A stretch of 64,000 bases of DNA from Gemmatimonadaceae bacterium. GTDB lineage: Bacteria > Gemmatimonadota > Gemmatimonadetes > Gemmatimonadales > Gemmatimonadaceae. The position numbers were made by a program, and so were the translations under genes. How positions within the stretch are numbered: position 1 is the first letter of the stretch; the number at the start of each line of letters is the position of its first letter. Below the pieces are notes generated by a model. The model did no database searches, was not told where the DNA came from, and worked only from the letters and a program-made list of their open reading frames with translations. Positions 1,679 through 23,917 of the stretch are shown in pieces. The stretch lies in the NCBI GenBank assembly GCA_036496605.1, contig DASXKV010000050.1, positions 124,001 through 188,000 of the forward strand. Direction: 5' to 3'.

Positions 1679-3148
1679 CTAACGCGGTAGCGCGACATTT
1701 CCCGTGTAGGGCCCGAGCAGCTCGCGGCGCCACCACGCTCCCGTGGCACGCTTCGTCGCCTCATCCGTGAACCAGTACTGCCAGATCACCGTTCGCACGA
1801 GCGTCGGAGGCTGCCCCTTGAAGGGATCGTTCCGGAATAATCGCAGGACGCTCGGACTACCTTCGGTGAGTCGAACCTGCGCGTTGACGACCCACGGCGA
1901 CTGCTGCCACGGACCTAACGACGCGAACCAGAGATTCCAGTCGAAGCGCGGCTGGTACGGCGCGTAGATTCCTGGCCGTTCGTTCACATCCTGTGGTTTG
2001 TACTTGAACGGATAGGCGACCCACGTCGTCCCGTCGCGGCTCCCCTGGAATTCGATCTCGTAACGTCCCTCCGTCATCACGGCGAACAGCCCATACGCAT
2101 TCGCGATCCGAAACGGCGCGAGCAGCCGCGCCGGCCAGCCCAGGAGCGGAATATCGGGGACGAACGCCATCACCGTCGCATACAACACGACCGCCAGCGC
2201 GGCCGTCTCGGTAACGCGGAGCCATCGCGGCCGCCTAACGACCCGCACGGCCTCCCCGACCCGGAATCGTAATCGGGTGAGCGTCTGATCGTCGAGGAGC
2301 AGCACGCCAAGCAACAAAACGAGGTGGTTCAGAAACGCGTAATTGGCCGTGGCGATGATCGCGATCTGAAGCGCCGTTACGATCACGAAGCAGACGATTC
2401 GGAAAGGACGGGCAAGCCAGACCATCCACACGAGTACCAGCTCGACGAAGAGCGTGAGAATTACGGTTCCCGCGTGAAACCCGTGCGGCCAGTGCTGCAC
2501 GTACCATCCGATCCAGGTCGGCAGCGGACCATTCTGGTAGTACTCGTCCATCGCGGTCAGATTTCGCCAGTGCGGATCCCCACTCGCAAACTTGACGATC
2601 CCCGACTCGAGGTAAATCCGGAACCACTCCCAGCGCAGCATGAAGAGACTGAAGCGCGAAGGCGGGTCGGTCGCGCCGAGGCCGGGACGCAGCCCGCGCG
2701 GCGCGAACCAGAAGGCGATGAATCCCGCCTCGAGGAGCATGCCGTCGGACTGATATGACGAGAAGTCCTGGAGCGCGGCGACGCACGAAAGAAAGAACAG
2801 CGTACAGAGCGCGGTCGTTAGGCGCGGCCAGAGGTTCGCGGTCAGGAGGAGCGAGCACAGGATGCCAGCACCGACGACGATCGCCAGCGCATAGTCTCCG
2901 GCACTCACCCAGAACAGGCTCGGCGCGTACCAGATCCCGCGCACCAGCCCGAGCGCGCCCCGCACGTTGTGCAGATATTCGCCGGCGGGCAGAATCGCGT
3001 GCTCGCCGATGAGGCCCTGGATCTGAAAAGCGAGCGAGTAGAACGCCGAGAAGAAGATCAGGCCGAGCCCGCGGAAGACGATCCAGCGCGGCCAGAAGTA
3101 CGTGGAGGCCGGCTCGTCCTCAGTGGCGAGAAATCGCTCGAGTCGCAT
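1679..3148 (-). CDS. Lipase maturation factor (LMF1-like) integral membrane protein
   Basis: A 489-residue protein with many hydrophobic segments in the first two thirds and a soluble C-terminal domain. The N-terminal WPRWIVFRGLGLIFFSAF, the central WEWFRIYLESGIVKFASGD followed by W-R-N-L and Y-Q-N-G-P-L-P-TW, and the C-terminal YWFTDEATKRATGAWWRR are typical of the lipase maturation factor family (PF06762). In vertebrates LMF1 helps lipases fold in the ER; the role of bacterial members is unsettled. It is divergent from the ADOP permease, with an 89-bp shared gap. Two CCTAACG/CGTTAGG heptamers lie on or next to Arg, Leu and Thr codons within it. Confidence 0.85.
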   Translation of the reverse strand: MRLERFLATEDEPASTYFWPRWIVFRGLGLIFFSAFYSLAFQIQGLIGEHAILPAGEYLHNVRGALGLVRGIWYAPSLFWVSAGDYALAIVVGAGILCSLLLTANLWPRLTTALCTLFFLSCVAALQDFSSYQSDGMLLEAGFIAFWFAPRGLRPGLGATDPPSRFSLFMLRWEWFRIYLESGIVKFASGDPHWRNLTAMDEYYQNGPLPTWIGWYVQHWPHGFHAGTVILTLFVELVLVWMVWLARPFRIVCFVIVTALQIAIIATANYAFLNHLVLLLGVLLLDDQTLTRLRFRVGEAVRVVRRPRWLRVTETAALAVVLYATVMAFVPDIPLLGWPARLLAPFRIANAYGLFAVMTEGRYEIEFQGSRDGTTWVAYPFKYKPQDVNERPGIYAPYQPRFDWNLWFASLGPWQQSPWVVNAQVRLTEGSPSVLRLFRNDPFKGQPPTLVRTVIWQYWFTDEATKRATGAWWRRELLGPYTGNVALPR

Positions 3149-20006: not shown

Positions 20007-21554
20007 ATGAGCGACGTGAATGAATCGGCTGACGACATCAAGCGGCGAGACTTCGTTCAGGGCGCGGTGACGGCAGCAGCGGCGCTGGTCGTCGGCTGGA
20101 GACCGTCGCTGAGCATACCGCGCCGCCCGCCAGACGACGTGATCGCGCAGATCGCGCTCCAGCATGACAAAACTCTAAAGATCCTCCAGGACTGGATCGC
20201 GCTGCCCTCGATCGCCGCCGAGAATCGGGGCTATCCGCAAGGCGCCGAGTACATGGCGCAGCTCGCGCGCGACGCGGGGTTCACGCACGTCGAAGTCGTG
20301 CCGACGACCGGGAAGCCCGGCGTGTTCGCGACCCTCGATGCCGGCGCGCGGACGTCGCTCGCGATCTATTTCATGTACGACGTCAAGCAGTTCGATCCCG
20401 CGGAATGGTCGTCCCCTCCACTCGAGGGGCGACTGGTCGACAAACCAGGACTCGGCAAAGTGATCGTCGGACGCGGCGCGACGAACACGAAAGGGCCGCA
20501 GACCGCGTTTCTCGCCGCGCTGCACGCGTTCAAGGCCGCGGGCAAGAAGCCGGCGGTGAATATCGTCCTCGTCTGCGAAGGCGAGGAGGAGATCGGTTCA
20601 CCGAATTTCTCGCAGATCGTCTTCAAACCCGAAGTCGAAGCCGCGCTCCACAAGTGCCTCGGCATCATCATTCCGTTCGGGAGCCAGGACCTCGACGGCT
20701 CCGTCCAGATCAACCTCGGCGCCAAAGGCGTCGTCGAGTTGGAGCTGGTGTCGAGTGGCGAGAAGTGGGGACGCGGCCCGAGGCACGACGTGCACTCGAG
20801 CCGCGAGGCGCAGCTCGACAGTCCGACGTGGCATCTCGTTCAGGCTCTCAACACACTCGTCGCCGCCGACGGCCACACACCGGCCGTGGAAGGATTCTTC
20901 GACAAGGTGCGGCCACTCACGGCGACGGAGAAACGCGTCCTGGAGGACGCGATCCCGAAGCGCAACGAGGCGGCAGCGAAGAAGTCGTTGGGCGTCGAGC
21001 ACTGGTACAAGGACGAGTCCTGGCACGATTCGCTCGTTAGGCTCGTGTCGCAGCCCACGATCAACATCGAGGGGCTCGTCGGTGGTTACACGGGCCCCGG
21101 CGGGAAGACGATTCTTCCTCACCGCGCCGTCGCGAAGATCGACATGCGGCTCGTGCCCGACATGACCGCCAAGGGTACGCTCGAGTTGCTGAAGCAACAC
21201 CTCGCCAAGCACGGCTTCGGCGACATCGACGTGAACATGAGCGGCGGCTACGATCCGACAGAGACACCGGCTGATTCAAAGTTGGTGAGTGCAATGACAG
21301 CAGCATTCCGCAAATCGGGCGTCGAGCCGGTTCTGTGGCCGCGTCTCGCCGGCTCCTGGCCGGGCGTGACGTTCACCGGCGCACCGCTCAAGCTACCGGC
21401 CGGACAGTTCGGCATGGGTCACGGCGATGGCGCGCACGCGCCTGACGAGTACTGGGTTATCGAGTCGTCAAATCCGAAGGTCGCGGGGATGGACGGCGCC
21501 GTCAAATCGTATGTCGAGTTCTTCCAAGCGTGTTCTGAAGGGGCTAGGGCCTAG
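20007..21554 (+). CDS. M20-family peptidase-like protein with Tat signal and altered metal ligands
   Basis: AGAGGG lies 6 nt before ATG 20007, which decides against ATG 20001. The N-terminus DIKRRDFVQGAVTAAAALVVG is a twin-arginine signal. The 515-residue protein follows the M20 (ArgE/DapE/CPG2) layout, with CEGEEEIG as the catalytic and metal-binding glutamates, a dimerisation lid around 205-380, and GDGAHAPDEY carrying the last histidine. However, the first metal motif, normally H-x-D, reads M-Y-D at 123-125, and the bridging aspartate position in GRGATNTKG is Asn160. Zinc binding may be changed or lost. It converges on the arginase-like gene, overlapping by 11 bp. Confidence 0.82.
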   Translation: MSDVNESADDIKRRDFVQGAVTAAAALVVGWRPSLSIPRRPPDDVIAQIALQHDKTLKILQDWIALPSIAAENRGYPQGAEYMAQLARDAGFTHVEVVPTTGKPGVFATLDAGARTSLAIYFMYDVKQFDPAEWSSPPLEGRLVDKPGLGKVIVGRGATNTKGPQTAFLAALHAFKAAGKKPAVNIVLVCEGEEEIGSPNFSQIVFKPEVEAALHKCLGIIIPFGSQDLDGSVQINLGAKGVVELELVSSGEKWGRGPRHDVHSSREAQLDSPTWHLVQALNTLVAADGHTPAVEGFFDKVRPLTATEKRVLEDAIPKRNEAAAKKSLGVEHWYKDESWHDSLVRLVSQPTINIEGLVGGYTGPGGKTILPHRAVAKIDMRLVPDMTAKGTLELLKQHLAKHGFGDIDVNMSGGYDPTETPADSKLVSAMTAAFRKSGVEPVLWPRLAGSWPGVTFTGAPLKLPAGQFGMGHGDGAHAPDEYWVIESSNPKVAGMDGAVKSYVEFFQACSEGARA

Positions 21555-22533
21555 CCTGTCTCTTCATCACTCCTCGCACTGCCCCTTCGATCATCCGATT
21601 CACCGCCGCGAGCGACAAGCCGCCAGAATCAGTGGCGGGGATCGTCGCGAAGCCGATCGCGGACGCCTTCGGATAGCGCGCGAAGATCTGCTCGAAGAGC
21701 CGCGCGAGCTGCTCGCTCGATGGACCGTTAGGCACCTTGTTCACGTGACCCATCACCTCGCGGGGATCGAGCACGTCCATGTCGATGTGAACGTAGATCT
21801 TGTCGACCGCTCGGCTGAGGCGGTCGAGCTGCGCGAAAACCGCCGGTGTCATGTTGCGCAAATCATCGACGCTCAGTTGCGCGATAACTGACTTGTCGAG
21901 TAGCTCCTGCTCGAGCGGATCGGTGAGGCGGACGCCGCCCATGACGACATCGCGATCCGCGAGTGGCGGATCGAGCTTCGCCTCGACGCGCATGCGTTGG
22001 AGCGCGCGGCCCGTCGCGACGGCCACCGGCATGCCGCCGAGATTCCCGCTGCGCGTCGTCTCGGGCGTGTTGAAGTCGGGGTGCGCGTCGAGCCAGAGCA
22101 TGCCGACTCTGATCGGATCGCGTGTTGGGCCGGAGTGCTGGAGTCCGCCGACGAGCCCGGGCATCGATGGACAGGTCGCCTCGAGTCCAACGGTGAACCA
22201 GCCCTGGCGCTCGTTCTCCGCGACGATGTCTGCGAAATGTCCGAGCGCCATGCTGAGCCGCTTCCAGCCGCCATACTCGGTGTCCTCCTGTGCCGTGAGC
22301 TTCACCTCAAACAGTCTCACGGTGGCACCGGCCGCGGCGAGGCGCGGCTGGATGCCGCCGTCGGCCATCGTCGTCGGCCCGACAGATGTTCCGTTAGGCA
22401 GATAGGGCTGCTTCACGAGCGCAACCCGGAGGTGCCCGCTCGGATCGGTATAGCGCTGCGCGCCAGCGGAGTGCACCGAAAGGATCAGTGCGGCGAGGAC
22501 GATAGCGGCGGTCCGCATCGAGTTTGAGATCAT
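21544..22533 (-). CDS. Secreted arginase/agmatinase-family (ureohydrolase) protein
   Basis: A 329-residue protein with a signal peptide ending near AGAQ (residues 6-25; ATG 22518 is an alternative start). LWLDAHPDFNTPETTRSGN provides the D-A-H-x-D manganese motif and YVHIDMDVLDP the second pair of aspartates. The first manganese histidine, normally in G-G-D-H, is not visible; the equivalent stretch reads GLEATCPSMPGLVGGLQ. Members hydrolyse guanidino or related C-N bonds, but export and the missing ligand leave the reaction open. It is divergent from the ArsR gene across a 93-bp AT-richer region. Confidence 0.8.
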   Translation of the reverse strand: MISNSMRTAAIVLAALILSVHSAGAQRYTDPSGHLRVALVKQPYLPNGTSVGPTTMADGGIQPRLAAAGATVRLFEVKLTAQEDTEYGGWKRLSMALGHFADIVAENERQGWFTVGLEATCPSMPGLVGGLQHSGPTRDPIRVGMLWLDAHPDFNTPETTRSGNLGGMPVAVATGRALQRMRVEAKLDPPLADRDVVMGGVRLTDPLEQELLDKSVIAQLSVDDLRNMTPAVFAQLDRLSRAVDKIYVHIDMDVLDPREVMGHVNKVPNGPSSEQLARLFEQIFARYPKASAIGFATIPATDSGGLSLAAVNRMIEGAVRGVMKRQARP

Positions 22534-22587
22534 AGGACGGGATGTTGCTGCTCTCGACCGCCGAGCGCAAATCCAACTTGTTTCTTG

Positions 22588-22627
22588 TAATATGCCTTGA
22601 CAGCAATATTGCTAATGAGGCATATTA
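22588..22627. promoter_or_regulatory. 40-bp nested dyad operator before the ArsR-type gene
   Basis: TAATATGCC (22588-22596) is the exact reverse complement of GGCATATTA (22619-22627), and the perfect 12-bp palindrome AGCAATATTGCT (22602-22613) lies at exactly the same centre. The element reaches the first base of the start codon of the ArsR-type gene and includes its ribosome site. Two concentric dyads in an AT-rich island look like an autoregulatory operator for a winged-helix dimer. Confidence 0.65.
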
Positions 22628-22941
22628 TGGACGTGAGCACCGTCCTCTTCGAAGTCCTCGCCGAGCCAAATCGCCGGCAGCTGCTCGACCTTCTGCGAGA
22701 GCAGGAGCGCACCGTCGGCGAGCTCGTCGACGCGCTCGACATCGGGCAGCCCGCCGTGTCGAAGCACCTGCGCGTGCTACGCGACGCGGGACTCGTCGAA
22801 GCACGCATCGATGCTCAGCGTCGCGTCTACAGCTTGCGGGCCGAGCCGCTCGCCGAAGTCGACGCGTGGCTCGCACCCTACCGGAAGTTCTGGCGCGGCC
22901 GGCTCACCGCACTCCAACGCCACCTGGCCAGTGACCGCTGA
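22627..22941 (+). CDS. ArsR-family winged-helix transcriptional regulator
   Basis: ATG 22627, with GAGG six bases upstream, starts MDVSTVLFEVLAEPNRRQLL. The 104-residue protein is one winged helix: LDLLREQERTVGELVDALDI, recognition helix QPAVSKHLRVLRDAGLV, wing ARIDAQRRVYSL. No metal-binding C-V-C motif is visible, so a metal sensor role is unlikely. It lies 22 bp ahead of an SRPBCC gene, the common ArsR-AHSA1 pairing of soil bacteria, and the nested dyad at its start suggests that it controls this pair. Confidence 0.88.
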   Translation: MDVSTVLFEVLAEPNRRQLLDLLREQERTVGELVDALDIGQPAVSKHLRVLRDAGLVEARIDAQRRVYSLRAEPLAEVDAWLAPYRKFWRGRLTALQRHLASDR

Positions 22942-22963
22942 CCCTTCACCCGAGAGTACAAAC

Positions 22964-23443
22964 ATGACCACGATGACCGTTCCCATGAGCGACCAGATCG
23001 AGGAGCAGGTTCTGCTCGATACGCCGCGTGCCCGCGTGTGGCGCGCTCTGACGAATGCCGACGAGTTGGGCGCCTGGTTCGGCGTCAACATCGCAGGCGC
23101 GACAATCGCCCCCGGGGCGCACGTTGTCGGACACATAACGATTCCGGGCTATGAGCACGTCGTGTTCGACATCGCGATCGAGGAGATGGTCGCCGAGCGG
23201 CGCTTTGCGTGGCGCTGGCACCCGAACGCGATCGACCCGAAGGTCGATTACTCGGCAGAGCCCCGAACACTCGTGACGTTCACGCTCGAGGACGCGCCTA
23301 ACGGAGGAACGCTACTTCGGGTCGTCGAATCGGGCTTCGAGGCATTGTCGGCCGCGCGGCGCGGTCCGGCATTCACCGGCAACAGCAAGGGTTGGCAGGG
23401 ACAGCTGCAGAAGCGCTTGCCAGCGTATCTCGCGTCGGCCTAA
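22964..23443 (+). CDS. SRPBCC (AHSA1-like) domain protein
   Basis: A 159-residue protein. EEQVLLDTPRARVWRALTN, then ELGAWFG, the pattern of beta strands, FAWRWHPNAID, TLVTFTLEDAPNGGTLLRVVESGF and the C-terminal KGWQGQLQKRL helix are typical of the START-like AHSA1 fold, which holds a hydrophobic ligand in a deep pocket. It is probably co-transcribed with the ArsR gene. Its TAA stop lies inside a CCTAACG heptamer. The ligand is unknown. Confidence 0.88.
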   Translation: MTTMTVPMSDQIEEQVLLDTPRARVWRALTNADELGAWFGVNIAGATIAPGAHVVGHITIPGYEHVVFDIAIEEMVAERRFAWRWHPNAIDPKVDYSAEPRTLVTFTLEDAPNGGTLLRVVESGFEALSAARRGPAFTGNSKGWQGQLQKRLPAYLASA

Positions 23444-23472
23444 CGAGCTGACCACGAGGTTCGATTGATGGA

Positions 23473-23504
23473 CAGAGCGGGCGGCAATCCAGCCGCCCGC
23501 TCTG
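23473..23504. terminator. Strong hairpin after the ArsR-SRPBCC unit
   Basis: CAGAGCGGGCGGC (23473-23485) pairs perfectly with GCCGCCCGCTCTG (23492-23504) across the loop AATCCA. It lies 30 bp after the SRPBCC stop. No T-run follows, as is common in this GC-rich window, but a 13-bp GC stem is a convincing terminator or 3'-end structure. Confidence 0.7.
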
Positions 23505-23587
23505 CGTCCAGCATCCTCCGGCCCTCCCGGGAGCGCCCGCCGTGTGCCACATTGTGAGCGAATCACTCACACCAATCCATCAGGCAC

Positions 23588-23917
23588 ATGCTCGTAACGA
23601 CGACAGAACGCGCGGAAGGCTATCAGGTCAAACGAGTCCTTGGTCAGGTATTCGGCGTGGTCGTGCGCAGCCGCAGCCTGGTCGGCAACGTCATGGCTGG
23701 CTTCCGAGCCCTCGCTGGCGGCGAAATCACCGAATACACGCGGCTCGTCGAGGACACGCGTCGTCACGCCATCGATCGCATGATCGAGAATGCGCGGCTG
23801 ATGGGCGCGAATGCCGTGGTCATGATGCGCTTCGATTCTTCCGAGATGGGTCAGACGATGTCGGAAGTCGTTGCGTATGGCACTGCAGTGGTGTTGGATC
23901 CGCCACCCGCCGACTGA
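23588..23917 (+). CDS. UPF0145 / YbjQ-like protein
   Basis: A 109-residue single-domain protein. MLVTTTERAEGYQVKRVLGQVFGVVVRS and the later RRHAIDRMIENARLMGANAVVMMRFD are the signature of the UPF0145 (DUF74, YbjQ) family, which forms pentameric rings in known structures and has been described as heavy-metal-binding without a firm function. It is followed after 9 bp by a small membrane protein, so the two are likely an operon. Confidence 0.88.
   Translation: MLVTTTERAEGYQVKRVLGQVFGVVVRSRSLVGNVMAGFRALAGGEITEYTRLVEDTRRHAIDRMIENARLMGANAVVMMRFDSSEMGQTMSEVVAYGTAVVLDPPPAD

Follow-up and report, generated by a model that had tools for sequence, protein, structure and literature searches.

The question raised by this locus is what role can be assigned to a 40-bp symmetric element (positions 22588-22627, no strand assigned) which lies immediately upstream of a gene coding an ArsR-family regulator. 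The window, meaning the whole stretch of 64,000 nucleotides that was analysed, contains three genes of interest in this region: a divergent arginase-like gene on the minus strand, the ArsR gene, and a gene for a protein with an AHSA1/SRPBCC domain, the last two on the plus strand. The original prediction regarded the element as an exceptionally regular operator for the ArsR-SRPBCC pair. The comparisons presented here allow us to propose, with a probability of about 0.8, that it combines operator and promoter for an arsR-AHSA1 operon which is leaderless and autoregulated.

Anatomy of the symmetric element

The order of the segments in the element is TAATATGCC-TTGAC-AGCAATATTGCT-AATGA-GGCATATTA. 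The 9-bp arms TAATATGCC (22588-22596) and GGCATATTA (22619-22627) are exact reverse complements, as found both in the sequence itself and by a repeat search, and the segment AGCAATATTGCT (22602-22613) was found by the repeat search to be a perfect 12-bp palindrome. Arms and palindrome have a common centre at 22607/22608, and 16 of the 20 position pairs of the 40-bp element are symmetric. The description of two perfect inverted repeats with a single centre, on which the original prediction was based, is thus exact.

It is important to compare this symmetry with chance expectation. For this purpose 100 random 64-kb sequences were generated from a first-order Markov model of the window. A 40-mer with at least 16 of 20 symmetric pairs is present in 15 of them, so that the total symmetry is not exceptional alone and is weak as stand-alone evidence. 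The nested form, defined as six central pairs and a separate run of at least nine pairs (a definition set after the element was seen), occurs once in the window, as this element, and in none of the 100 random sequences. The nested form is beyond chance. Random centres with the base composition of the surrounding 100 bases reach 16 of 20 pairs in 7 of 3,992,000 cases. The outer-arm pattern, with up to three mismatches permitted, is found once in the window and in none of 100 shuffles; the genome as a whole contains one other instance, an exact one, before an ArsR paralogue.

The best promoter-like site in the interval 22400-23600 is located within the element. It consists of a -35 box TTGACA (22597-22602, plus strand) and, 18 bp further, a -10 box CATATT (22621-22626, plus strand), with 10 of 12 bases matching; two promoter-like sites were found in the interval, compared with 0.2 expected. 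The left arm lies just 5' of the -35 box, which is placed between this arm and the palindrome and has one base in common with the palindrome's first base, while the -10 box is contained in the right arm. The element covers a predicted core promoter.

Symmetry and site conservation in the relatives

The -35 box and the central ATAT were used to align the sequences upstream of 110 ArsR relatives. A region was retained when it matched at least 9 of the 10 bases of this promoter and palindrome anchor, and 71 of the 110 did so, compared with 50 of 11,000 control windows. The remaining 39 count against general conservation and were excluded from the symmetry tests. Removal of 26 of the 71 regions, each at least 80% identical over the 40 bp to a region that was kept, left 45 dereplicated regions; the compensation test was made on 47 rows, which are these 45 and two paralogues from the same genome. 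Positions are numbered from the centre, with the first base to its right as +1, so that the -10 box ends at +19. Because regions were chosen by their match to TTGACA and the central ATAT, the conservation of those columns, including the presence of ATAT in all 45 regions, is by selection.

In the 45 regions the symmetry has its peak at the common centre, 22607/22608. The mean pairing there is 0.69 for the inner six positions and 0.53 for the outer ones (positions 12-20), while the twelve neighbouring centres (13 were tested in all) give at most 0.41 and 0.29, respectively. Among the columns outside the anchor, A-16 (0.87), T-15 (0.96), C-12 (0.96), A15 (1.0) and T16 (0.93) are conserved; A15, T16, A17 and T18, all in the -10 box, are conserved outside the anchor. 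Within the inner palindrome the bases that flank the central ATAT vary with compensation, and this compensation in the inner dyad goes beyond column composition: a value as high as the one observed arises in 2 of 5000 permutations. The permutations ignore relatedness, for which an alternative register on the same sequences provides a rough control. The original prediction made conservation at orthologous loci its own test, and the outcome, with 71 of 110 regions passing the anchor, favours an operator.

Of the 45 regions, 5 have a perfect inner palindrome, the window copy being one of them, and 6 have a match at every one of the five core outer pairs (12-16). The element is ordinary in kind, and it is this copy that is unusually regular; the words "exceptionally regular" hold for it.

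It should be considered whether the inner palindrome is the only operator, with the outer dyad a by-product of the -10 box that happens to be mirrored by an unrelated upstream element. The outer symmetry is accounted for by the conserved columns (a value as high as the one observed arises in 553 of 2000 permutations), half of which belong to the -10 box that makes up the right arm. Compensation in the outer pairs -12 to -14 is weak (46 of 5000 permutations) and over the full outer arm, -12 to -19, it is not significant (346 of 5000). Position 14 pairs in 0.33 of the relatives, and the low count of regions with all five core pairs points in the same direction. However, the left half-site AT..C (positions -16, -15 and -12), the conserved core of the left arm, belongs to neither promoter box and yet is conserved at 87-96%. 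When all 351 column pairs were ranked by complementary excess, the pair -13/13 was third (z 3.2), -3/3 fifth (2.7) and -4/4 ninth (2.4); the top two are the adjacent columns 17/18 and 13/14, which are in neither register. In addition, a second copy in the same genome keeps exact outer arms while its inner palindrome is imperfect. An operator restricted to the inner palindrome is, in our estimate, somewhat unlikely.

A different arrangement would be two abutting 16-bp dyads (ATRCC-n6-GGYAT twice), one over the -35 box and one over the approach to the -10 box, each binding one dimer. The concentric appearance would then be a consequence of two palindromes standing side by side. The aligned regions do show a direct periodicity of 16 bp, with an identity of 0.475 at shift 16; among shifts 11 to 21 no other exceeds 0.289. 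Both 16-bp dyads can also be read in the consensus, and the right one is slightly compensated. Yet the central axis shows stronger compensation than the two dyads (742 and 231 of 5000 permutations), and in the window it is across the central axis, and not across the 16-bp dyads, that the inner bases match. The central axis is better supported than these dyads as the main register, and we consider the side-by-side arrangement clearly unlikely. Complete palindromes centred 16 bp to either side were likewise rejected as flanking sites, the symmetry there being near the column expectation.

The central-axis operator was followed through the genomes with a degenerate pattern. In the genome of the window it matches at three places when up to three mismatches are permitted, each directly before an ArsR gene, and a dispersed repeat was rejected on this account. 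Besides the gene of the window, these are the two paralogues most like it (59% and 55% identical) among 11 ArsR matches in the genome, and all three genes are followed by an AHSA1-domain gene. One of the two paralogous sites (L113, G000:C67:777-816), before the 55%-identical ArsR and its AHSA1 gene, has 9-bp outer arms identical to those of the window around an imperfect inner palindrome.

Across 149 genomes, the own genome included, the pattern with up to two mismatches gave 24 matches in 21 genomes, corresponding to 23 distinct places since one was matched on both strands. Of these 23, 22 lie directly before an ArsR relative. The pattern was built from sequences that include many of the sites later found, and the finding is the near-absence of sites elsewhere. 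The reversed control pattern has no match in the 149 genomes. No match at two mismatches was obtained in 128 of the genomes; 145 of the 149 have some ArsR relative. The remaining place, L138, was rejected as an operator site and scored as a miss; it precedes a different gene with ATGTC repeats of its own. It presents another regular promoter (L138:1490-1560, genome G008), in which TTGACA stands among repeated ATGTC words. By eye, the gene that follows has an HTH-like N-terminus and resembles a nucleotidyltransferase, and it is followed by a small gene, possibly forming with it an MNT-HEPN toxin-antitoxin pair.

The support for an operator of the ArsR-SRPBCC pair, as first proposed, comes from the conserved symmetry at the centre in the 45 relatives, the inner compensation and the three sites of the own genome.

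Neighbouring genes and the start of translation

The ArsR-family regulator (22633-22941, plus strand) has 102 amino acid residues. It matches PF01022 (HTH_5) with 65.9 bits (cut-off 22) and NF033788 with 88.2 bits (cut-off 55), and belongs to the ArsR/SmtB family. The closest solved structures are those of ArsR-family proteins, with 3f6o first (E 8.8e-14). The translated protein contains no cysteine, and a cysteine-based metal or thiol site of the kind used by ArsR/SmtB sensors is therefore excluded.

The AHSA1/SRPBCC (COG3832-type) partner is encoded at 22964-23443, adjacent and on the same strand, and matches PF08327 with 63.5 bits. Both genes are presumed to form one operon, on a common transcript. 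The partner is a regular companion of the regulator. An AHSA1/SRPBCC match within 450 bp downstream is present in 36 of the 41 dereplicated regions with enough sequence, four regions that ended too soon being left out. Without dereplication the count is 41 of 67, owing mostly to many Amycolatopsis copies, and over all regions it is 64 of 106. Pfam assigned nine of ten downstream proteins to AHSA1 and one to a DoxX-like family. Region L101 (995-1369) carries this operator before its ArsR gene too, and the gene immediately after arsR there codes for a DoxX-like membrane protein. Nine Amycolatopsis copies (L004-L009, L011, L014 and L015) keep the promoter and operator, TTGACGGAAATATGCC...GGCACATTT, upstream of position 3001, and the 450 bp downstream of them yielded no AHSA1 gene; in this genus the regulator and its AHSA1 partner may have become separated.

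The divergent gene (21544-22518, minus strand; alternative start at 22533) codes for a protein that matches the arginase family, below the cut-off of the rocF equivalog, and has by eye an apparent signal peptide. The original prediction suggested that the dyad might control this gene as well. Its start is 54 or 69 bp from the dyad, which is symmetric, and CATATT can be read on the minus strand (22594-22589) with a hexamer matching at 4 of 6 positions at 15-bp spacing. At the usual spacing of 16-18 bp, however, the minus-strand -35 matches at most 2 of 6 positions. A similarly close arginase was found in 2 of the 60 genomes searched, the own genome being one of them, and the 3.9-kb locus of the other copy, which is 72% identical, contains nothing that resembles the operator with fewer than 10 mismatches. 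No arginase occurs at the other operator loci within the flanking sequence examined, which was short for some. The arginase-like gene is probably not part of the ArsR-AHSA1 system. Its control by the dyad appears quite improbable and was set aside as unsupported.

The element had also been described as reaching the start codon and covering the ribosome site. This part of the description was not retained. The element coincides with the core promoter, and the codon concerned, ATG 22627 (position +20), overlaps the -10 region; it is unlikely to be where translation begins. An in-frame start codon is found at +24 to +29 in 44 of the 45 dereplicated regions, in 32 of them at +26, which corresponds to GTG 22633 in the window; two regions have one at +20, and in seven, the window included, an in-frame start codon occurs no later than +20. 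The N-terminus read from GTG 22633, MSTVLFEVLAEP, agrees with the closest orthologues. Shine-Dalgarno-like tetramers occur in 16 of 23 cases before a second start overlapping the stop codon of ArsR, and before the ArsR start itself in 2 of 44. One of those two is in the window, where the tetramer GAGG is part of the right arm together with the preceding base. The -10 box ends about 7 bp before the start codon.

The ribosome-site reading was rejected on the start-codon alignment and the lack of a Shine-Dalgarno sequence, and translation most likely begins at GTG 22633 rather than at ATG 22627. The ArsR mRNA is probably leaderless, because the relatives start at the position of GTG 22633 and not at that of ATG 22627. 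A true start at ATG 22627, with the dyad acting on the RNA as a hairpin or on ribosome access, is very improbable: this ATG is in frame, six bases after GAGG, and has a counterpart in one other region (L051, with ATG at +20 beside GTG at +26), but it is missing from the five closest distinct orthologues (L082, L083, L001, L084 and L085), all starting at +26, and from the two paralogues of the same genome, starting at +26 (GTG, L113) and +27 (ATG, L114), and under the predicted promoter it would lie upstream of the transcription start, with the left arm untranscribed.

Predicted autoregulation and comparison with known systems

An inverted repeat lies over the regulator's own predicted promoter, in a position conserved together with the regulator. 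Most likely the element is the site at which the ArsR of a two-gene ArsR-AHSA1 (COG3832) module, a regulator without cysteine, represses its own gene. The boxes recognised by RNA polymerase would be TTGACA (22597) and CATATT (22621), and transcription would begin about seven bases past the -10 box, at or beside GTG 22633, the predicted start of translation. We infer from the compensation in the inner dyad that an ArsR dimer would bind over the inner palindrome, at the two-fold axis within the promoter spacer. Further contacts with ArsR could be made at the outer half-sites, just 5' of the -35 box and over the -10 box, and flanking dimers at a distance of 16 bp would be their simplest source; that these outer sites are bound cooperatively is a guess, consistent with the 16-bp step. 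The bound ArsR would cover both promoter boxes and shut off arsR and the AHSA1-domain gene, which would be autorepression by occlusion.

A broader proposal is possible rather than probable: that the leaderless ArsR-AHSA1 pair and a nested operator of four half-sites around the -35 and -10 boxes, with both dyads cooperatively bound, form one ancient cassette. Similar predicted operators precede related genes in several bacterial phyla, and the cassette would be recognisable, going by the record titles, from Gemmatimonadota to Actinomycetota, Chloroflexota and Bacillota and in single MAGs of Eremiobacterota and Alphaproteobacteria.

The ArsR-AHSA1 pair is widespread, and a conserved predicted operator makes it searchable and testable. 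The promoter alone could separate the pair's own ArsR members from other ArsR genes, and the predicted operator provides a ready binding probe for ligand screening. It also permits the correction of start codons which automatic annotation may have put within the -10 box. The three sites of the own genome, all before ArsR genes, suggest that these regulators mainly control their own operons.

It is useful to compare the locus with known autorepressors. Members of the ArsR/SmtB family such as SmtB and CzrA are winged-helix proteins of the HTH_5 type with an inverted-repeat operator in their own promoter. The ArsR of the window resembles them in its HTH_5 domain and in the predicted inverted-repeat operator in its own promoter. 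Unlike in those systems, the 12-bp palindrome of the window is nested in outer half-sites at 16-bp steps, and the regulator is without cysteine. There is also a significant similarity in the DNA-binding domain (66.7 bits) to the SdpR autorepressor subfamily, NF033789. However, this score is below the cut-off of 100 bits, which places the ArsR of the window outside the subfamily, and the partner gene differs, the partner of SdpR being the membrane protein SdpI.

A literature search gave no paper that we recognised as describing an operator of the ArsR-AHSA1 pair. In Frankia the pair is reported to form a large set of possible operons for which no link was shown (PMC4531530), and the Stenotrophomonas copy of the pair is reported to have shown no toxicity (PMC7650669). 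The pair of ArsR and COG3832 (Aha1/AHSA1) was described in 2009 by Makarova et al., who listed it among toxin-antitoxin-like pairs and leaned to a role in resistance (PMC2701414). The sections of that account considered here give no operator, promoter or leaderless start for the pair, in which respect the window differs. According to the same sections, these modules contain an ArsR subfamily without metal-binding motifs and are present in several copies in some genomes (PMC2701414). The locus of the window is like them in all three features: the same pair of families, several copies in the genome, and an ArsR without the metal motif of the family, as judged by the absence of cysteine.
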